This document shows, one piece after another, positions 37,865-53,116 of a stretch of 64,000 nucleotides of DNA. The translations under genes and the position numbers were made by a program. This DNA is from Eubacteriales bacterium (GTDB lineage Bacteria; Bacillota; Clostridia; Acetivibrionales; JANLFN01), in NCBI GenBank assembly GCA_024655885.1, contig JANLFN010000012.1, forward strand, positions 18,046-82,045, in the 5' to 3' direction. The notes under the pieces were generated by a model, which saw only the letters and a program-made list of their open reading frames with translations, was not told the origin of the DNA and did not search any database. Each line of letters starts with the position of its first letter. Positions within the stretch are counted from its first letter, which is position 1.

Positions 37865-38623
37865 ATGGACGCAATCATACTGGCAGGCATGGAGCCCCGC
37901 AGAAACAGCGGCATTTCCGGCAATAAGGCACTGCTGCCCATTAACGGAAAGATGATGGTGGAATACGTTATTGACGCTGTTCGGGGTGTGGATGAAATCG
38001 AAAAAATCGTGGTCATAGGACCTGAAGATAAACTGAAGGAGCTTGTTAAATATAAAATTGATGCGGTAATACCACCTAAGGGCTCCATAATGGATAACCT
38101 TATGTCGGGAGTCAGGTACGTAGGTTATACAAATTACATACTGGTTTGCGCTTCCGATATTCCCATGGTTTCTTCAGAGGCCATAGCACACTTTATCGGC
38201 AGTGCAAAGTCCCTGAAGGCGGATTTATGCTATCCCGTCATAGAAAAAACGCTAAGCGAAAAAAAGTATCCCGAAATGGCAAGAACCTATGTTAAGATCA
38301 AAGACGGAACTTTTACCGGTGGAAATCTATTTTATATAAATCCCGAAGTGCTTGAAAGATGCGCGGGACTGGCGGACAGGCTTGCAAGTTTTCGAAAAAA
38401 CCCTTTAAAACTGGCAAGGGAATTGAGTTTTTATTTTATGGTACAGCTGTTTCTCGGTACCTTAACCATAGAACGTGTCGAAAAAAAGGTTTCAACTCTA
38501 TTAAACATTAATGCCCGCGCAGTAATATCTCCCTATCCGGAAATAGGCAATGACGTTGACAAAACCAGCGACCTGCTTGCCGTCACCGCCCATTTAAAAG
38601 GAAGAGCACTACCGCAGGAATAG
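37865..38623 (+). CDS. MobA-like NTP transferase, paralogue 1
   Basis: 252 residues. A Rossmann-type nucleotidyltransferase fold with KALLPINGKMMVEYVIDAV (about 20-38), the DIPMV metal motif near 99-103 and the GGNLFYINPE segment near 155-164. The glycine-rich nucleotide loop is altered: LAGMEPRRNSGISG instead of the usual LAGGxGxRM. It probably activates a sugar phosphate or cofactor with NTP; substrate unknown. A close paralogue follows at 38833. Confidence 0.82.
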   Translation: MDAIILAGMEPRRNSGISGNKALLPINGKMMVEYVIDAVRGVDEIEKIVVIGPEDKLKELVKYKIDAVIPPKGSIMDNLMSGVRYVGYTNYILVCASDIPMVSSEAIAHFIGSAKSLKADLCYPVIEKTLSEKKYPEMARTYVKIKDGTFTGGNLFYINPEVLERCAGLADRLASFRKNPLKLARELSFYFMVQLFLGTLTIERVEKKVSTLLNINARAVISPYPEIGNDVDKTSDLLAVTAHLKGRALPQE

Positions 38624-38832: not shown

Positions 38833-39582
38833 ATGATTAACGCAATAATACTTGCGGGCTCACAGCCGATTAATGACTGTAATGACAACAGCAACAAGGC
38901 TCTATTATGTATTAACGGCAAGATGATGGTTGAGCGGGTTTTAGACGCGGTAAAATCGGCGGCAGACATTGATAAGGTCACAGTTGCAGGTACCAAAAAG
39001 GATCTTGGGAAATACCTGGAGGGCAAGGTAGATGTGGTAATAGACTCTCAGGGTTCCATTATGGACCATGTATTAGCTGCGACCGAATATCTTGGTGTGG
39101 ATAAAAATCTGCTGGTATGTTCTTCGGATATACCCCTCATTACCAAGGAATCCATCAACGATTTTGTGGGCAAGTCAAAGCTGCAAGAGGCTGACCTCTA
39201 TTACCCGGTTATAGAAAAACAGTCCAATTTCAATATTTTCCCCGAAAATGAAGCGGCAACAGCCTATATAAAAACCAGAGAAGGTACTTTTGCAGGAGGA
39301 AATATATTTCTGGTAAATCCCAGGGTTGTAGAGAAACTGTATCCAACACTGGATAGGCTTATTAAAATAAAAAAGCACCCCTTAAAGCTGGCAAAAACCT
39401 TAGGGCCAAAATTTATTATGCAGACGGTTACAGGTACTCTCACACTGGAAGGTATTGAAAAAAGATTTTCAAAACTGTTGGATGTAAAAACAAAACTGAT
39501 ACTTTCCTGTTACCCGGAAATATTCAACGATGTGGACAGACCCAGTGACGTGCTTGTTGCCACGGCTATTTTAAGCAGGTAA
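38833..39582 (+). CDS. MobA-like NTP transferase, paralogue 2
   Basis: 249 residues, aligned to paralogue 1 end to end (KALLCINGKMMVERVLDAV, DIPLI, GGNIFLVNP, CYPEIFNDVDRPSDVL). The nucleotide loop has diverged even more (LAGSQPINDCNDNSNKAL), losing the Arg and most glycines. An AGAAAGGG site precedes the ATG. Separated from paralogue 1 by 209 nt without a clear terminator. A tandem duplication is the simplest origin. Confidence 0.82.
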   Translation: MINAIILAGSQPINDCNDNSNKALLCINGKMMVERVLDAVKSAADIDKVTVAGTKKDLGKYLEGKVDVVIDSQGSIMDHVLAATEYLGVDKNLLVCSSDIPLITKESINDFVGKSKLQEADLYYPVIEKQSNFNIFPENEAATAYIKTREGTFAGGNIFLVNPRVVEKLYPTLDRLIKIKKHPLKLAKTLGPKFIMQTVTGTLTLEGIEKRFSKLLDVKTKLILSCYPEIFNDVDRPSDVLVATAILSR

Positions 39583-40057: not shown

Positions 40058-40284
40058 AAAATCCTCCTTAAAATTTGAATTTTGAACATATCTATTTTTG
40101 CCTGCCATGATAAAAATATGATAATATATATTGGCAAAGTGCCATATCTATAATACGGTTAAAGTATATTTTTCCGACTTTGCGGGAATATTTAGGAAAA
40201 TATGAAGAATAAACAATTTTTTTTACAAAAAGCAGTTATTATGATATATTTTTTTTATTGAATATTTATCCGGGAGGTTGCATA

Positions 40285-40992
40285 TTGATAGACCCTAAAG
40301 TTTTAGTTATCATCCCTGCTTTTAATGAAGAAAAAAGTATTGCCGGCGTGATAAGAGAGGTAAAAGGCAACTGTAAAGCCGATATTCTGGTTGTTGACGA
40401 CGGCTCAACAGATTCAACCGCTCAAGTGGCTTTAAAAGAGGGTGTAAAAGTTGTTTCCCTCCCCTTTAACCTCGGCATTGGGGGTGCCGTTCAAACAGGT
40501 TACATATATGCAAACGAGAATAATTACGATATAGCGGTCCAGGTGGACGGCGACGGGCAGCATGACCCATCCTACCTGGATGAGCTGGTGGCCCCCATAT
40601 TAAATGAAAAATATGACATGGTCATAGGCTCCAGGTATGTGCAGGAAACCTCGTACAAGTCCACGCTGTCAAGACGTGTGGGCATGGTGTTTTTTTCGTG
40701 GCTGCTCTACTTTCTTACGGGAAAACGGATTAAGGATACCACCTCCGGTTTCAGAGCCGTAAACCGTAAAATCATCCGGTATTTTTCCTCAAGCTATCCT
40801 ACCGACTACCCGGAAGTAGATGTAATCGTCAGGCTTTTCAGGAAAAACTGCACAATCCTTGAAGTGCCGGTGGAAATGAAAGAGCGGCAAGGGGGGAAAT
40901 CATCCATAACCCCGTTAAAGTCAATCTATTATCTGATCAAGGTAAGCCTGGCTTTACTGATCAATATCCTTCGGTCAAGAGGTGCGTTATGA
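40285..40992 (+). CDS. Family 2 glycosyltransferase (DPM/undecaprenyl-phosphate type)
   Basis: 235 residues from TTG 40285, which lies 7 nt after GGGAGG and gives the expected IDPKVLVIIPAFNEE start. DDG (about 39-41) and the DGDGQHDP motif (about 86-93) are the nucleotide-sugar and metal sites. No membrane anchor of the GtrB kind. It probably makes a polyprenyl-phosphate sugar. First of three overlapping or close genes, ending with a GT39 enzyme that would use that donor. Confidence 0.9.
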   Translation: MIDPKVLVIIPAFNEEKSIAGVIREVKGNCKADILVVDDGSTDSTAQVALKEGVKVVSLPFNLGIGGAVQTGYIYANENNYDIAVQVDGDGQHDPSYLDELVAPILNEKYDMVIGSRYVQETSYKSTLSRRVGMVFFSWLLYFLTGKRIKDTTSGFRAVNRKIIRYFSSSYPTDYPEVDVIVRLFRKNCTILEVPVEMKERQGGKSSITPLKSIYYLIKVSLALLINILRSRGAL

Positions 40993-41348
40993 TTTTTAAT
41001 GTGTACATGCTTTCCATTGCCTTCAGTATATTGTTTTTAATTATCATCATCGAGCTTGTGAGAAAAAACAGGCTGCTGGAAAAGTATTCCCTGCTGTGGA
41101 TATTGTTTGGAATCATGCTGCTGGCATTATCCATCACACCTGCTTTTATAGAAGCTATCGCCAGGCTGATGGATATTAAATATGCCCCATCCGTCCTCTT
41201 CCTTTTTGGGATGGTATATGTGGTAATTTATAATCTTCACATCACGGTGGTATTGTCCAAGCAGTCCCAGCAAATAACCCGGCTGAACCAGGAAATTGCC
41301 ATTTTAAAGGAAAAAACCGGAGATTTCAAGACCAATGATAAAGCATAA
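40989..41348 (+). CDS. DUF2304 membrane protein
   Basis: 119 residues with three membrane helices (about 4-21, 33-51, 67-87) and a short coiled-coil tail. It overlaps the preceding glycosyltransferase by 4 nt (ATGA). DUF2304 proteins regularly accompany GT2 enzymes and may anchor them or help flip the lipid-linked sugar. Confidence 0.88.
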   Translation: MIFNVYMLSIAFSILFLIIIIELVRKNRLLEKYSLLWILFGIMLLALSITPAFIEAIARLMDIKYAPSVLFLFGMVYVVIYNLHITVVLSKQSQQITRLNQEIAILKEKTGDFKTNDKA

Positions 41349-41365
41349 AAGGTGGTTTGTATTAA

Positions 41366-42544
41366 ATGAATATTATTAGTAAAAAGCCCAGTTCGTTTTG
41401 GGAAGTCAGTTTAATTACAGGAATTCTTATATTCGCTTTCTCCTTAAGGCTCTACTACCTGTTTAAGATTCCACACCCGCCCTTGATTTTTGACGCAGCC
41501 AACTATGACGCTATGGCCAAGCAATTTCTTGAAAAGGGTTTTTTAGGCTATGCGTCCAGCAAGCCCAATGCCTTTACCACACCGGGCTACCCTCTTTTTC
41601 TCGCGCTTATTTACAAGATTTTTGGCTATTCCAACGGCAGCCCCCTTACCCAGGTCAGAATAATACAGGTGGCGCTTTCAACTCTGACCATCGGATTTTT
41701 GTATCTGCTGGGCAAGCAGGTTTCCAATGGGAGAACAGGCTTGATTGCCGCATTTTTTTCGTCTATTTACCTTATTTCCCTATGGGTTCCTACGCTTATC
41801 CTCACAGAAACCCTTTACACCTTCTTGTTCGTCCTCTACCTGTACTTACAGGTTACTGCCATAAAGACCAGGTCCGGCTTCCTTAATTTCCTTACGGGAG
41901 CGGTACTTGCTGCCGCCGTGCTGGTGCGGCCCGCTGTTGCGCCCTTAATAATTCTCCCATACGTATATTACTATATGGAGACAAGGGACAGGACCCTCAT
42001 CAAAAACTTTTTGCTGAATGTATGCGGTTTTGTCCTGCTGATGCTTCCCTGGTGGATTCGGAATGTGGTAACCTTAAAAAAGCTGATCCTGTTTGCCACC
42101 CAGGAGGATCCCCTTTTAAAAGGGACCTATCCCTACGAGGAGGGAATAGAAAACGCACCCCTGATCAACCAGAAGCAGGAGGCCATAAGGCGGCTGAAAG
42201 AAGGCTTCACCACCCGGCCCCTGTATTACCTTAAGTGGTACACCATAGGAAAATTCGATTTTATTTTTTTTAAAACCTTCTATTACGTGGATGAGAAGGT
42301 GACAACCCTGAGGTGGCTCCTCCCCCTTCACCAGTTTTTCGTCTGGTTCGGGTGGGTGGGAGTGTTTCTCTCTTCGGTCAGAAAGGAAATCAAGCTCATC
42401 GCGCTGTATGTATTTCTTTTAACCCTCATACAGCTGGTCTTTGTAGCAACTTCAAGGTATTCCTACCCTATTATGCAGCTTCTGATCCTGCTGTCCGCCT
42501 ACATTATTGATATCCTGTTTTTCAGGACCAGGCAGGCGGATTAG
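41366..42544 (+). CDS. GT39/ArnT-like membrane glycosyltransferase
   Basis: 392 residues with about nine membrane helices. The first outside loop holds the FDAANYDAMAKQFL acidic motif (about 42-55) and TPGYPLFLALIYKIFG (about 72-87), both typical of PMT/ArnT enzymes that move sugars from polyprenyl phosphate to protein or lipid. It follows the GT2 and DUF2304 genes in one operon. The acceptor is unknown. Confidence 0.88.
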   Translation: MNIISKKPSSFWEVSLITGILIFAFSLRLYYLFKIPHPPLIFDAANYDAMAKQFLEKGFLGYASSKPNAFTTPGYPLFLALIYKIFGYSNGSPLTQVRIIQVALSTLTIGFLYLLGKQVSNGRTGLIAAFFSSIYLISLWVPTLILTETLYTFLFVLYLYLQVTAIKTRSGFLNFLTGAVLAAAVLVRPAVAPLIILPYVYYYMETRDRTLIKNFLLNVCGFVLLMLPWWIRNVVTLKKLILFATQEDPLLKGTYPYEEGIENAPLINQKQEAIRRLKEGFTTRPLYYLKWYTIGKFDFIFFKTFYYVDEKVTTLRWLLPLHQFFVWFGWVGVFLSSVRKEIKLIALYVFLLTLIQLVFVATSRYSYPIMQLLILLSAYIIDILFFRTRQAD

Positions 42545-42569: not shown

Positions 42570-42598
42570 TTGACTTATATCGTAGAGTGTGGTATTAT
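42570..42598 (+). promoter_or_regulatory. Promoter upstream of the AAA+/PspA cluster
   Basis: TTGACT-N17-TATTAT. A second possible promoter (TTAAAC-N18-TATAAT) lies at about 42672-42701. The leader of at least 120 nt before the AAA+ gene contains no other gene. Confidence 0.6.
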
Positions 42599-42827
42599 TA
42601 TCTATGTTTAGTGTAGCTTTAGTTTTTGAAAAGGTTCATTTGCCTTATTTAAAAGATTTGTTCTTTAATATTAAACTTTTGCGCGGATTTTTAGTATAAT
42701 AGTTTTGATAAGGACAACACTCTATATTAACGTTAGCGGAGGAAAAGGCTGTATTTGGCATCCTGGACCTTACAGGCCCCGTTGTTCGGGACTGTCTCCG
42801 GGATGGTCGGCCTATCAAAGGCGGAAT

Positions 42828-44456
42828 ATGTGGTATGAAGAATTTTTAAATAAATACAAGGCGGGTATTTCCCACGAATTCCTGTTCTATTTCAACGTCA
42901 GGGACCTGGTGGACAACAGCAGGCACATGGACAGGTATTTGTACGAGGAGTTCATAAAACAGCGGGGCTTTGCCATCGTGGCCTTTTATGACATCTCCCG
43001 GGGTCTCACCTTCCTTGAGCCGGGCATGGAAAAGGAGTTTCACAAGATAACCTCCAACCAGATGATGGATATGCTCCACGTTTTGCCTTCCAAACTTTTC
43101 CCCCATATAGACAAGGCCCTGAAGAACACCAAAATGGCCTTGTTCATAGACCATGTGGAAAAGATCATTCCTTCCGGGGATATGGCGGGGATGACGCTGG
43201 AAGAGCGCATGACCCTCATATGGCTGTGCGAGTGGTCGGTAAGTCCTAAAATATCTTCGGTAGGAAGCACGATTTTTATGATGACGGACAATCTGGCGGA
43301 TGTAAGCAGGGAAGTCCTGAAATCCTCCTTCAAGGTGGAACCGGTGCTGGTAGAGCTTCCCGGCGAGAAAGACCGCAGGGACTATATCGAATACCTGATA
43401 AAGGATAAAAACATAAAAACGGATATAAGCATCGATGAGTTTGCAAAGCTGTCGTCGGGCCTCAGCAAAAAGTCCATCAAGGATATAAAGCTGAAGGCGG
43501 AAGCGGAGGGCATCCCCATCACTTTCGAGTTTATTAAGGAAAAGAAGCACTCGGTCCTCCAGAAGGAATACGGGGATGTTCTGGAGTTCATATACCCGGA
43601 GATCAGCTTCGAGGATATCGGAGGAATGGAGAGGGCAAAAAATTACCTGCTGAAAAATATTGTGGACCCCATCTTGCACGGCGACTTGCGGAGGGTTCCC
43701 ATGGGCATCCTGCTGTGCGGCCCTTCGGGTACGGGGAAAACCCTTCTTGTAAGCGCTCTTGCCAAAGCCAGCGGCTTCAACTGCGTCAAGATCGACATGT
43801 CTAGGATCCTGGGACAGTATGTGGGAGAAAGTGAAAAGAATTTTAAGAAGTGTCTCCTGGGTGCCCAGTCCCAGCAGCCGGTCATCGTATTTGTGGACGA
43901 AATCGATACCGCCTTCAGGCGTGGTGAAAGCGGCGACAGCGGTGTAAGCAGAAATATTTTCAGTGAATTTTTACAGTTTACCGGTAATACTAATAATAGA
44001 GGAAAAGTAATTTTTATTGCAGCCACAAACAGGCCTGACCTGCTGGACCCTGCATTAAAAAGGGCGGGAAGGTTTGATAAGAAAATCCCCATTCTTCTTC
44101 CCGATGTGGAGGAAAGGGCGGAAATATTTAAAATCATGATCAAAAAGTACGGTTTTGAGACAGATATCACCGATTTTATGCCCTTTGCCCAGCAGACGGA
44201 AAACTACACGGGGGCCGAAATAGAAACGGTGGTCCGAAAGGCCTATGAGCTTGCCAATGAAGATGAGGTGGAGGGAAACCTGTTGAGCTCCGAAATACTG
44301 AATGAAGCGGTAAAAAGATGCAGGCCCAGCACCCAGCAGGTGGAATTTATGACCATGCTAGCCATCAGGGAGTGCGACGACAAGGATCTGCTGCCTGAAA
44401 AATACAAGGACGTGGCGGACGAAAAGGGCGGTACGGTCCAAGGAGCCGGGCAATAG
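42828..44456 (+). CDS. AAA+ ATPase with degenerate N-terminal and active C-terminal AAA domains (Cdc48/Vps4-like)
   Basis: 542 residues from ATG 42828 with AGGCGG upstream; a longer frame from 42705 lacks a site. Residues about 1-250 look like a degenerate AAA domain: there is no P-loop, but a Walker-B-like LFIDHVEKI and a lid-like ELPGEKDRRDYIEYLI remain. The C-terminal AAA domain is intact: DIGGMERAK near 266, Walker A GPSGTGKT near 298-305, Walker B VIVFVDEID with Asp357-Glu358, sensor AATNRPD near 398 and RAGRFD near 412. This is the classic AAA clade of protein remodellers. The next gene encodes a PspA/IM30 (ESCRT-III-related) protein, which suggests the substrate. No protease domain is present. 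Confidence 0.88.
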   Translation: MWYEEFLNKYKAGISHEFLFYFNVRDLVDNSRHMDRYLYEEFIKQRGFAIVAFYDISRGLTFLEPGMEKEFHKITSNQMMDMLHVLPSKLFPHIDKALKNTKMALFIDHVEKIIPSGDMAGMTLEERMTLIWLCEWSVSPKISSVGSTIFMMTDNLADVSREVLKSSFKVEPVLVELPGEKDRRDYIEYLIKDKNIKTDISIDEFAKLSSGLSKKSIKDIKLKAEAEGIPITFEFIKEKKHSVLQKEYGDVLEFIYPEISFEDIGGMERAKNYLLKNIVDPILHGDLRRVPMGILLCGPSGTGKTLLVSALAKASGFNCVKIDMSRILGQYVGESEKNFKKCLLGAQSQQPVIVFVDEIDTAFRRGESGDSGVSRNIFSEFLQFTGNTNNRGKVIFIAATNRPDLLDPALKRAGRFDKKIPILLPDVEERAEIFKIMIKKYGFETDITDFMPFAQQTENYTGAEIETVVRKAYELANEDEVEGNLLSSEILNEAVKRCRPSTQQVEFMTMLAIRECDDKDLLPEKYKDVADEKGGTVQGAGQ

Positions 44457-44552
44457 CCCCTCAGTACGCCGAAAATTTCATATTATCGTTTACACCCGAA
44501 GGGATTTATTATAAATTATATTTGTACCAGTATAGAATAAGGAGGCAATACC

Positions 44553-45281
44553 ATGGGTTTATTTAGCAGACTGGGTGCTTTAATAAGAGGCTTTTTCGGC
44601 ATATTTGTGGGAGGCCTTGAAGAAAGAAACCCGGAAGTATTATTCGAGGATATCAAGAATCAGATTGAACAGGCAAGGAAAGAAGCTGAACAGCAAATCA
44701 TCGAAATCCAGACCAATGCCGAACTGATAAAAATCGAAATGAAAAACGCGGAAAAAAACCTGGCGGCCATTAGGTCCAGAATAGAAGCGGCACAAAAGCA
44801 GGGGGACAAGGATGTGCTGATTGAGCTGCTGGTGCAGGAGGAAGAATACCAGACGGTCTATGAAACCCACAAGGCCACCTACGACAACGCAATGGCTGAA
44901 GTGGCAAAGATCAGGGAGGACTACAAGATTTTCGAATCCGAAATGAGTGCAAAGCTTAATGAGCTGAAAACTTTGAAATCCCAGGCAAAGATGGCGTCGC
45001 TGAGGGAAAACATCAACTCCGTAAACGCCAAGTACACTTCAAAGAACAGCAGGGTGGGAAGTGTAAACGACCATATGGAGAGGGCCAGGGAAATTGTCAA
45101 TAAAAAGACGGCCAGGGCCAATGCCGTTGAATCCCTGAACGACGCAAACATGGAAATGAAGCTGAAGCGGCTGGATATGAACTCTGCGCGGGAGAGGGCG
45201 AGAGCGCGGGCAGAAGCCATGTTGAGCACCGACCAGGGCTTTGAGGTCAAGGAAAAAATAGAAAACAAAGCAAATTCATAA
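44553..45281 (+). CDS. PspA/IM30 (ESCRT-III superfamily) protein
   Basis: 242 residues behind AAGGAGG. It begins with a membrane-binding amphipathic helix (MGLFSRLGALIRGFFG) and continues as one long helical protein with coiled-coil pattern from about 25 to 235. Length and layout match PspA/Vipp1. Sequence is divergent: the usual PspA core is only loosely kept and there is no Vipp1-type basic tail. Such proteins polymerise on stressed membranes and reshape them. It is preceded by an AAA+ ATPase and followed by an acetyltransferase at 13 nt. Confidence 0.85.
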   Translation: MGLFSRLGALIRGFFGIFVGGLEERNPEVLFEDIKNQIEQARKEAEQQIIEIQTNAELIKIEMKNAEKNLAAIRSRIEAAQKQGDKDVLIELLVQEEEYQTVYETHKATYDNAMAEVAKIREDYKIFESEMSAKLNELKTLKSQAKMASLRENINSVNAKYTSKNSRVGSVNDHMERAREIVNKKTARANAVESLNDANMEMKLKRLDMNSARERARARAEAMLSTDQGFEVKEKIENKANS

Positions 45282-45294
45282 GACCGGGGGTAGA

Positions 45295-45789
45295 ATGGAA
45301 ATGATTATTCGGGATGGGGAGCTAAGCGACCTTGAGCAGTTGACGGCCATTTACAACTGGGCTGTGGAAAACACGACGGCTACTTTTGACCTGGCGAAGC
45401 AGAGCACAGCCAGCCGGTTGGAATGGTTCAACCAGCACACGGGCGTGCACCCCCTGATAGTGGCGGAACTGGACGGTAAGGCTGTCGGATACTGCACTCT
45501 CTCAAAGTTCAGGGAAAAGGAAGCCTATATCAAAACCGTGGAAATATCCGTCTATATCCATCCCTCCTATCAGCGCCGGGGTATAGGCACGGCACTGGTA
45601 GAGGAAATGATCCAAAGAGGCAAAAAGCTGGGGCACCATGTGATCATTGCCGGCATAACCGCAGGCAACGATATCAGTGTCAAATTGCACCAGAAGTTCG
45701 GTTTTGAGCTGTGCGGCCACATGAAAGAGGTAGGGAAAAAATTTGGGAAGTGGCAGGACGTATTATTTTATCAATTAATCATAGAATAA
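45295..45789 (+). CDS. GNAT-family N-acetyltransferase (PAT/Bar-like)
   Basis: 164 residues. GNAT motif A YIHPSYQRRGIGTALVEEM lies at about 82-100 with the acetyl-CoA loop QRRGIG. The start IRDGELSDLEQLTAIYNW and the C-terminal HQKFGFELCGHMKEVGKKFG are typical of the phosphinothricin/methionine-sulfoximine acetyltransferase group. It starts 13 nt after the PspA-like gene, so it is in the same operon, possibly as a passenger. Substrate unknown. Confidence 0.9.
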   Translation: MEMIIRDGELSDLEQLTAIYNWAVENTTATFDLAKQSTASRLEWFNQHTGVHPLIVAELDGKAVGYCTLSKFREKEAYIKTVEISVYIHPSYQRRGIGTALVEEMIQRGKKLGHHVIIAGITAGNDISVKLHQKFGFELCGHMKEVGKKFGKWQDVLFYQLIIE

Positions 45790-45844
45790 AATGTTCTTGC
45801 TTAACTGATTTATAACCTCTAGAGCATGGAGGAAAGGGATTTGT

Positions 45845-46648
45845 ATGAAGTTTAAGATGTTCGTCAGTGCAATGTTTGAGTTAAAAAATATAACAGCGCT
45901 TTTAATCCTGCTGGGTCTGGCTTTTGCCGCGGATTCTTCCCTTGTGCCGTTTTTTGGGCCAGATGTGGGATTGGTCGCCTATCCGGCCGGCATAGTTCTG
46001 TACCTTATTTTTGTAATCCAGACGCTTACAAGCAATAAATTTATTGAAAGCTTCAACCGGAAGCAAAAAATAAGGCATATCCAAGACCTTAACTACTCAT
46101 GCCTGAAGCTTGCAAACGAAGCAAAAAGACACACCAACAGCGCGTATTATCAAAAACTCCGCAAGGTGATGGAAGACAAAAACGACATCGTAAATTCTTT
46201 TTTCAAAGGAGAAAAAAGCTATATTAAGGAAAAAGTGGTGGAGCAGACACTGAATCTGGTTATATCCTACACAAAGCTTCTCACCAACTTCTGTATAAGA
46301 AGCAGGGAACTGGGTGGAATAGACTTAAGCGATATAACAAACAGGATCAACAGCAATACGCGCAAGCTGAGTTTCGTGAATGATCCCCATGCGGAAGAGG
46401 ATTTGAAAAAGGTCATTGAGATGGATGAAAAAATCATCCAGAGGCTGAAGGATGAGAAAAAGGACCTTGAAAGAATCAAGGCCAAACTGGACTATATGGA
46501 AAGCACGGTAAACATGTTCAAGCACCAGGTACTGTCCAGCATAGAATCTGAAGAAATGCTTGAAAAGCTGGAGTCTGCGGTAAACGAAGCTGCGGCCCTG
46601 GACAACGTCCTGGAAGAAAGGCGTAAAAGCGGCAGGATCAGGATGTAG
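45845..46648 (+). CDS. Two-TM membrane protein with long coiled coil, unknown function
   Basis: 267 residues from ATG 45845 behind GGAGG. Two membrane helices (about 16-30 and 41-61) form a hairpin, placing both ends in the cytoplasm. Residues about 65-260 are helical, with a strong coiled coil near 180-245 (KVIEMDEKIIQRLKDEKKDL region) and a basic end. No known domain recognised. It is 55 nt after the acetyltransferase, and I infer that it is a membrane anchor or adaptor for the PspA/AAA+ pair. Confidence 0.7.
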   Translation: MKFKMFVSAMFELKNITALLILLGLAFAADSSLVPFFGPDVGLVAYPAGIVLYLIFVIQTLTSNKFIESFNRKQKIRHIQDLNYSCLKLANEAKRHTNSAYYQKLRKVMEDKNDIVNSFFKGEKSYIKEKVVEQTLNLVISYTKLLTNFCIRSRELGGIDLSDITNRINSNTRKLSFVNDPHAEEDLKKVIEMDEKIIQRLKDEKKDLERIKAKLDYMESTVNMFKHQVLSSIESEEMLEKLESAVNEAAALDNVLEERRKSGRIRM

Positions 46649-51724: not shown

Positions 51725-53116
51725 ATGAGTATAAGAGAAAAGCTTTTAGATTTTAAACGCAGGCTTTCGGACAGGAAGATGTACAGCATCGTCATTGTCG
51801 TCATAGCCGCTGTTGCTGTCTGGGGTCTCTATCAATACAAGCATGCGGCCAATCTCAGGCAGGAGCTGGACAACCAGTACAACAGGGCATTCTACGATAT
51901 GACCGGGTATGTCCACAACGTGGAAACCCTATTGCTAAAATCCCTGATCACATCCACGCCGGCCAAAACCGCCGCTACGCTCCAGGAGGCATGGAGGCAG
52001 GCAAACCTGGCCCAGACCAATCTGGGACAGCTGCCTATATCCCAGCAGGTGCTGGCGAACACCTCCAAATTTTTGACCCAGGTGGGGGACCTGGCCTACG
52101 CATTGAATAACCAGAACATGGCCGGCAAGCCCCTGACCGACCAGCAGTATAAGACCATAGAGCAGCTTCACGCCAGTGCCCTGTCCCTGGGCAACAGCCT
52201 CAACGACCTGCAGAGCCAGCTTGGCTCAGGCAGGCTGAAATGGGGCGACCTCAGCAATAAAGGCACCCCGCTGTTCCAGAAAACTTCAAGCAACATGCCC
52301 ATGCAGCAGTTCGAGAACATAGATAAAACCTTCCAGGACACTCCCAAGCTGATTTATGACGGGCCGTTCTCGGACCATCTTGTAACGGCGGAGCCCAGAG
52401 GAGTAAGCGGCAATGAAATGAACTCCGAGCAGGCCAAACAGAGCGTTGTCAATTTCTTCGGCGCAGATAAGGTCAAAGCCGTCAATGATACGGGAAGAAA
52501 CGATACCGGTCCAATTAAAACATACAGCTACAGCGTTTCCTTTAAAGGTGCGCCGGACAACCAAACGGCAAGCATCGACGTCACGCAGAAGGGCGGCCAT
52601 ATCTTCTGGATGCTCTACACCAGGCCTGTCGCATCCGCTTCAATCAATGTGGACCAGGCCAAAGCCCTGGGAAAAAAATTTCTTGAATCCCATGGCTATA
52701 AGGGCATGGTTGATACCTACTATTTGAAGGAGGACAACACGGCTACCATCAACTATGCCTACCAGCAGGACAATGTAGTCATCTACCCGGACCTCATAAA
52801 ACTGAAAATAGCCCTGGACAACGGAGAAATCGTGGGGTTTGAAGGCAAGGGCTACCTCTATTCCCATACCGCCAGGACAATTCCCAAACCCAAAATTACC
52901 GAGCAGCAGGCCAGGTCGGTAATCAGCCCAAGGGTCCAGGTGCTGAGTTCGGGCTATGCCATAATCCCTACCGACTACAAAACAGAGCTGTTCACTTACG
53001 AGTTCAAGGGCAAACTGAACAACCAGGATTTCCTCGCCTACATCAATGCTGAAACAGGAAAAGAGGAAAACGTGCTCATCATTATAAACACTCCCAACGG
53101 TATTCTCACCATGTAG
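51725..53116 (+). CDS. ypeB: Germination protein YpeB
   Basis: 463 residues with one N-terminal membrane helix (about 19-37), a helical stretch to about 190 and C-terminal YpeB/PepSY repeats (about 235-460). YpeB and SleB stabilise each other in the spore. It is 11 nt downstream of sleB with a GGAGG site. Usual length. Confidence 0.95.
   Translation: MSIREKLLDFKRRLSDRKMYSIVIVVIAAVAVWGLYQYKHAANLRQELDNQYNRAFYDMTGYVHNVETLLLKSLITSTPAKTAATLQEAWRQANLAQTNLGQLPISQQVLANTSKFLTQVGDLAYALNNQNMAGKPLTDQQYKTIEQLHASALSLGNSLNDLQSQLGSGRLKWGDLSNKGTPLFQKTSSNMPMQQFENIDKTFQDTPKLIYDGPFSDHLVTAEPRGVSGNEMNSEQAKQSVVNFFGADKVKAVNDTGRNDTGPIKTYSYSVSFKGAPDNQTASIDVTQKGGHIFWMLYTRPVASASINVDQAKALGKKFLESHGYKGMVDTYYLKEDNTATINYAYQQDNVVIYPDLIKLKIALDNGEIVGFEGKGYLYSHTARTIPKPKITEQQARSVISPRVQVLSSGYAIIPTDYKTELFTYEFKGKLNNQDFLAYINAETGKEENVLIIINTPNGILTM

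Follow-up and report, generated by a model that had tools for sequence, protein, structure and literature searches.

A conserved clostridial cluster of a double-AAA ATPase, a PspA-like protein and a two-transmembrane protein: a candidate ESCRT-III/Vps4-like membrane-remodelling machine

In the ESCRT-III/Vps4 system (CdvB/CdvC) of archaea and eukaryotes, a polymer-forming protein of the ESCRT-III superfamily is paired with a classic AAA ATPase, and the disordered C-terminal tail of the polymer protein bears a short motif. In bacteria, the main text of Ravi et al. (2024, mSystems; PMC11237479) places a PspA beside a double-AAA protein whose N-terminal AAA is inactive (the example is PspA AEY64321.1), proposes a role in ATP-dependent membrane remodelling, and describes the association as occasional. 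The same text reports PspA/Snf7-AAA-PBP-OmpA transport operons (OGG56892.1), and notes that how assembly is controlled in PspA homologues that have no AAA ATPase partner is unknown. No disassembly ATPase dedicated to PspA turned up in the literature found, and no useful literature was found for Clostridium PspA combined with an AAA ATPase or for expression in C. thermocellum. Here we analyzed a stretch of 64,000 nucleotides (the window) from a Clostridia genome of 3.44 Mb (Eubacteriales bacterium, GCA_024655885.1, contig JANLFN010000012.1, positions 18,046 to 82,045), in which four open reading frames (ORFs), all on the + strand and separated by short intergenic gaps, encode an AAA ATPase, a PspA-like protein, a GNAT acetyltransferase and a protein with two predicted transmembrane segments (two-TM protein). 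This layout had been described in an initial annotation of the sequence, and the ORFs confirmed it. The window pair matches that of Ravi et al., i.e., a two-AAA ATPase with an inactive first module next to a PspA, so an AAA-PspA pair with a dead first AAA is already known, as the initial annotation had suspected when it called the pairing perhaps not wholly new. For the obligatory triad of ATPase, PspA-like and two-TM proteins, for the partnership of the two-TM family with PspA in several lineages of Bacillota, and for the tail motif of the PspA-like protein described below, we found no description; the main text of Ravi et al. mentions neither the motif nor the family, and an overlap in its supplement is possible. 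The triad is suggestive of an ESCRT-like machine for membrane remodelling in some bacteria, and the chances appear evenly balanced that this operon encodes an ESCRT-III/Vps4-like one, in which the ATPase would engage the tail of the PspA-like protein and the two-TM protein would anchor it.

The initial annotation had named, as one condition that would refute its proposal, that the three genes are rarely neighbours, and the genes did travel together. Among 245 Clostridia genomes, searched for the N-terminal domain of the ATPase (E<1e-100), a PspA of at least 60% identity and a homologue of the two-TM protein, the three were found in the identical 17 genomes and in no others. These genomes come from the order of the window and from four additional families, and the co-occurrence is far beyond chance (Fisher p about 1e-26, a nominal value that ignores relatedness). 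When 84,980 species were searched for the N-terminal domain of the ATPase, 43 contigs were found, which belong to Ruminiclostridium, Acetivibrio, Pseudobacteroides, Anaerobacterium, Herbivorax and metagenome-assembled genomes; the triad is carried by cellulose-degrading clostridia and a few relatives. The PspA gene directly followed the ATPase gene in 41 of the 43 contigs, and the two-TM gene was present in 40. In two contigs (L058 and L076) the locus runs off the contig edge, and the only informative exception was a contig from a termite-gut genome (L089), where no PspA follows the ATPase and a FIST-like sensor kinase is found instead (apparent FIST-domain and sensor histidine kinase genes, L089:1579-4941, assigned by eye from the translation). 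In what appears to be the same genome (G002), the PspA, two-TM and AcpS genes lie on another contig, behind thioredoxin and radical-SAM genes; the set is split, yet all three genes are kept.

The first gene of the cluster (42828-44456, + strand) encodes the ATPase, of 542 residues. Its start is best placed at the ATG at 42828 (MWYEEF...), because the proteins of its relatives begin at M-W, and the listed TTG at 42705 is an over-extension. The second module (D2, residues ~251-520) forms an entire AAA module of the classic type (Pfam AAA, 6e-39), with the Walker A motif GPSGTGKT (residues 298-305; 43719-43742, + strand), the Walker B motif VIVFVDEID, sensor-1 N401, a Y-V-G pore loop 1 (Tyr331-Val332-Gly333; 43818-43826, + strand), and R412 and R415 as candidate arginine fingers. 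The Walker A of D2 was kept in 16 aligned homologues, bar single substitutions, and across the aligned homologues V and G of the pore loop were invariant and the Tyr nearly so. Residues 1-250 (D1) matched no Pfam family, MIT included. Conservation of D1 is high, with 54-76% identity between relatives and the window protein over residues 1-265. In each of 15 homologues there was a single G-x4-G-K-[ST] motif, located in D2, and none in the first ~250 residues. The AlphaFold2 (AF2) model of the ATPase (predicted local distance difference test, pLDDT, 84) was aligned over residues 1-542 with D1-D2 of Cdc48/p97 (7lmz_C; Z 28.2, 486 residues, root-mean-square deviation 6.3), the alignment covering p97 residues 211-774, and the model also matched Rix7 and Drg1. 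By this alignment, the N-terminal half is a degenerate AAA module; it has no Walker A, in agreement with the inactive-looking first domain and intact second domain that had been annotated.

Model and family scores both point to an ATPase that is Cdc48-shaped and not a Vps4. Vps4 (6bmf_A) was among the D2 matches (Z 23.6, 266 residues); fidgetin-like 1 and spastin matched equally well, so this match does not discriminate. The NCBIfam scores were 176.8 bits for CDC48 (cut-off 802.65), 163.8 for PAN and 140.7 for CdvC (cut-off 650), those for CDC48 and CdvC being far under the cut-off. Membership in the Vps4/CdvC group was rejected, given the CdvC score and the lack of MIT, since residues 1-250 model as an AAA module. 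Unlike Vps4, the window ATPase has a dead AAA module in place of MIT, and a two-TM partner is present; its best NCBIfam match is CDC48 and not CdvC. With Cdc48/p97 it shares the tandem D1-D2 modules, but it starts at D1, without the N-terminal substrate/adaptor-binding domain, and its D1 has no Walker A. An anti-phage system with an ATPase of the IetA/TRIP13 type was also considered and rejected: PADLOC matched the generic AAA core alone (IetA, best 115 bits, residues 290-504), and the partner proteins had no PADLOC match.

The second gene (44553-45281, + strand) encodes the PspA-like protein, of 242 residues, which belongs to the PspA/IM30 family of the ESCRT-III superfamily and is the only PF04012 match of the genome (38.2 bits, cut-off 33.9, E 1.6e-9). 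Its AF2 model (pLDDT 78, predicted template modelling score 0.65) has helices at residues 4-25, 27-83, 86-140, 144-193 and 200-225 (alpha0-alpha5), with the amphipathic alpha0, the long alpha1-alpha2/3 hairpin, alpha4 and alpha5 of the PspA/IM30 architecture. The top Foldseek matches were Vipp1/PspA chains (best E 2e-3, which is modest), and CdvB2 was also in the list; the annotation as a PspA/IM30 homologue holds. The tail (residues 228-242) is predicted to be disordered (pLDDT <50) and bears, as in ESCRT-III, a short motif, here GFEVKEK (residues 229-235; 45237-45257, + strand). In 46 of 46 non-redundant close PspA homologues G-F-E-V-[KR]-E-[KR] was invariant (K4 98%, K6 96%), and the five preceding residues were 39-70% conserved. 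One homologue ends in GFEVRER (L073), and another carries three tandem copies of the motif (L084). In contrast, the motif was absent from 8 PspA relatives (L041-L048) that have neither an AAA nor a two-TM neighbour. The motif has the appearance of a handle for docking or pulling, which either partner could read. GFEVKEK does not seem to resemble the consensus of MIM1 or of MIM2.

The two-TM protein (267 residues; 45845-46648, + strand) has hydrophobic segments near residues 7-33 and 42-58, followed by a long C-terminal helical/coiled-coil region, so the two-TM prediction of the initial annotation holds for the window protein. Members of this family are up to 276 residues long, with a K/R-positive start, two hydrophobic stretches and then ~200 helix-rich residues; in several relatives one helix falls under the hydropathy threshold. 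The family has no Pfam or NCBIfam match, and no PspC or Lia match above cut-off. Homology between the PspA and the two-TM proteins was considered and rejected (hhalign, 0.1%). By description, the arrangement is like that of mycobacterial PspA-PspM, where, according to the main text of Ravi et al. (PMC11237479), PspA likewise shares an operon with a membrane protein of two TM segments; PspM is reported there in mycobacteria and corynebacteria only.

The two pairs that make up the triad were also found separately. One genome from a different class of the phylum (G581) has an ATPase with this architecture (41% identical), and ~25 bp after its gene comes that of a PspA (30-38% identical), with no two-TM gene; this remote PspA ends in GRVVKERVQE, in which the motif is recognisable as GRVVKER. 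Four genomes, from two other families, have a dyad with no ATPase nearby: the gene of a canonical PspA (100 bits to PF04012 in L141) overlaps with the beginning of a two-TM gene, and the two-TM protein of these dyads is a remote homologue of that of the window (hhalign 96.7%, E 5e-10, 245 columns, with the 0.1% for PspA against two-TM as control). Since AAA-PspA and PspA-2TM pairs occur separately, PspA has two separable partners, which are combined in the window.

Taking together the gene identities, the state of D1 and D2, the co-occurrence and the motif distribution, we infer the following contacts and direction of ATPase action. The PspA-like protein would lie with its N-terminal amphipathic helix on the inner membrane face and polymerise, as its family and predicted fold suggest. 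The two-TM protein, with its putatively cytoplasmic coiled coil, would recruit or nucleate PspA at a membrane site, a role supported by the overlapping two-TM/pspA dyad in other Bacillota. The AAA protein, with its two AAA modules, would form a stacked hexameric ring, in which the nucleotide-free D1 may be a platform or substrate receiver, whereas D2, with its Y-V-G pore loop, would hydrolyse ATP and pull. The disordered GFEVKEK tail would recruit the ring and be threaded, so that PspA subunits would be extracted from the polymer or the polymer rearranged. In a more specific version, which we put forward only tentatively, this would be an ESCRT-III disassembly machine that evolved apart from Vps4, with the dead D1 in place of MIT as the GFEVKEK receptor, and with a two-TM family, not described before and more widely partnered with PspA in Bacillota, as the tether of the PspA polymer.

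Several observations weigh against this machine. The homologues are related to each other, so the co-occurrence and motif counts are not independent. In the four PspA-2TM dyads that lack AAA, the end is [LQE]QV-x-ER-L-x-KIKQEMG, which is similar in part and may or may not be related to the GFEVKEK-type motif; the tail therefore goes with either partner and is not necessarily the handle of the ATPase. ATPase relatives without a PspA occur in mobile-looking loci (G576, beside DUF3150, and G301) and on plasmids of Paenibacillaceae (full-length identity 34-36%, no annotated PspA neighbour), so PspA is not the only possible substrate of the family, in which the PspA-coupled members make up one branch. 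VIA-align placed F-BAR/I-BAR hairpins above Vipp1 for the PspA-like model, which is expected for long helices yet unsupportive. Finally, a dedicated ATPase is not obligatory, because PspA can bind ATP and hydrolyse it slowly by itself (PMC11746142). The PspA-less relatives also fit a scheme in which PspA is a regulator and not a substrate: its tail would dock on the AAA ring and silence or position it, the clients would be other (membrane) proteins, and the two-TM protein would be a releasing sensor. Such a role has an established precedent in E. coli, where PspA binds and inhibits the AAA+ protein PspF (as cited within PMC9239133), and a short invariant motif suits docking as well as threading. 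However, PspF belongs to another AAA clade (a sigma-54 activator), whereas D2 of the window ATPase is a classic translocase module with a Y-V-G loop, and no candidate client gene is conserved nearby, the conserved set being the triad plus the housekeeping genes AcpS and SbcDC. We consider this regulatory scheme rather unlikely.

Hsp70 acts as a chaperone for Vipp1 in chloroplasts, and the ATPase and two-TM protein could likewise aid PspA assembly, or its exchange between soluble and membrane forms, without processive threading. The double-ring fold is common to unfoldases and complex-remodelling factors (Rix7, Drg1), and the assembly of membrane-linked complexes is what the main text of Ravi et al. 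(PMC11237479) proposes for PspA-AAA pairs; the intact aromatic pore loop and the arginine fingers suit threading instead, and an assembly factor seems to us unlikely. The genes could also be neighbours through the housekeeping gene order (AcpS, SbcD, SbcC, SleB, YpeB) alone, with no joint function, given that many relatives have AcpS, SbcDC or YpeB beside the locus, and that distant PspAs without AAA or two-TM genes are likewise found beside AcpS or YpeB. These partnerless PspAs lack the tail motif, however, the pairs are also present in unrelated surroundings (G581 and the four genomes with overlapping PspA-2TM genes), and the three genes are kept where the locus is split. Adjacency by chance or by synteny only was rejected; this explanation, which we regard as highly improbable, is largely refuted already.

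With respect to the proposed extraction machine, the triad offers a defined system, present as a single copy in clostridia that can be cultured (Ruminiclostridium, Acetivibrio, Pseudobacteroides), and its seven-residue motif is deletable. It would make an ESCRT-like extraction cycle directly testable in bacteria, and would show whether ESCRT-III became coupled to an ATPase on more than one occasion.

The third gene of the cluster (45295-45789, + strand) encodes an ArsN1-like GNAT acetyltransferase (Pfam Acetyltransf_1, 4.5e-22; NCBIfam ArsN1b 130.6 bits, under the cut-off of 210). The acetyltransferase that had been annotated as a member of the cluster is indeed present, but it is not a conserved part of it: a GNAT gene lies between the PspA and two-TM genes in just 9 of the 43 contigs. 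As an optional gene it was rejected as a component, and it is probably not part of the machine. A glycosyltransferase group (40258-42544) precedes the + strand cluster. A sigma-70-like promoter match (42570-42598, + strand; TTGACT, 17 nt, TATTAT, with TG before the -10), which begins where the annotated cluster began, at 42570, is found 5′ of the ATPase gene; it has an extended -10 and agrees at 10 of 12 positions. The region holds 10 promoter-like matches against 6.6 in shuffles (standard deviation 2.6), a slight excess, and comparable TTGAC...TATTAT-like sequences occur 5′ of the ATPase gene in two relatives (L050 and L062). A regulatory leader at this place was not conserved past the closest relatives, and an Rfam search gave no match at the locus. 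Unlike in PspABC/LiaFSR operons, the Pfam scan showed no PspB/PspC or LiaF/LiaS/LiaR among the adjacent genes, as the initial annotation had also stated. The genes 3′ of the two-TM gene are, in order, AcpS, SbcD, SbcC, a SleB/CwlJ-like hydrolase and the spore-germination gene YpeB (51725-53116, 5 kb 3′ of the cluster). YpeB, often with AcpS, also adjoins distant PspAs without AAA or two-TM genes (L043:2938-5116, L044:3380-5560 and L047:5762-7876), and from this gene order a spore link of the locus is possible.

Further relatives were seen in other settings. PspA-less ATPases with a dead D1 include those at L124:3589-6685 and L125:4402-6204 and those on the large Paenibacillaceae plasmids NC_014628.2 and NZ_CP116888.1, and no phage relatives of the orphan ATPase were found at E 1e-30. 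An ATPase with a weakly similar N-terminal domain lies 3′ of coiled-coil and apparent radical-SAM activase-like genes (L126:3809-6954 and L127:3635-5828) and may belong to a coiled-coil/AAA pair of another kind. Paralogues of the two-TM protein are found directly 3′ of a TM-anchored NMT1-OmpA protein (L131:3485-5929 and L132:5001-7451), like in the PspA/Snf7-AAA-PBP-OmpA operons, but no PspA or AAA was among the ORFs listed around them; in the window genome, no NMT1-OmpA protein of full length is encoded. Another paralogue lies 3′ of M50 and M23 (SpoIVFB/SpoIVFA-like) peptidase genes (L133:5424-8154), and an M50/M23-like pair is present in L131 also, further upstream. A second use of the two-TM family in transport or sporulation loci is possible. 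Elsewhere in the window, two tandem related MobA-like/NTP-transferase genes of similar length share motifs (37865-38623 and 38833-39582), and a tandem repeat with an 84-bp unit (3.2 copies, 97% matches) occupies positions 1-265, at the window edge.

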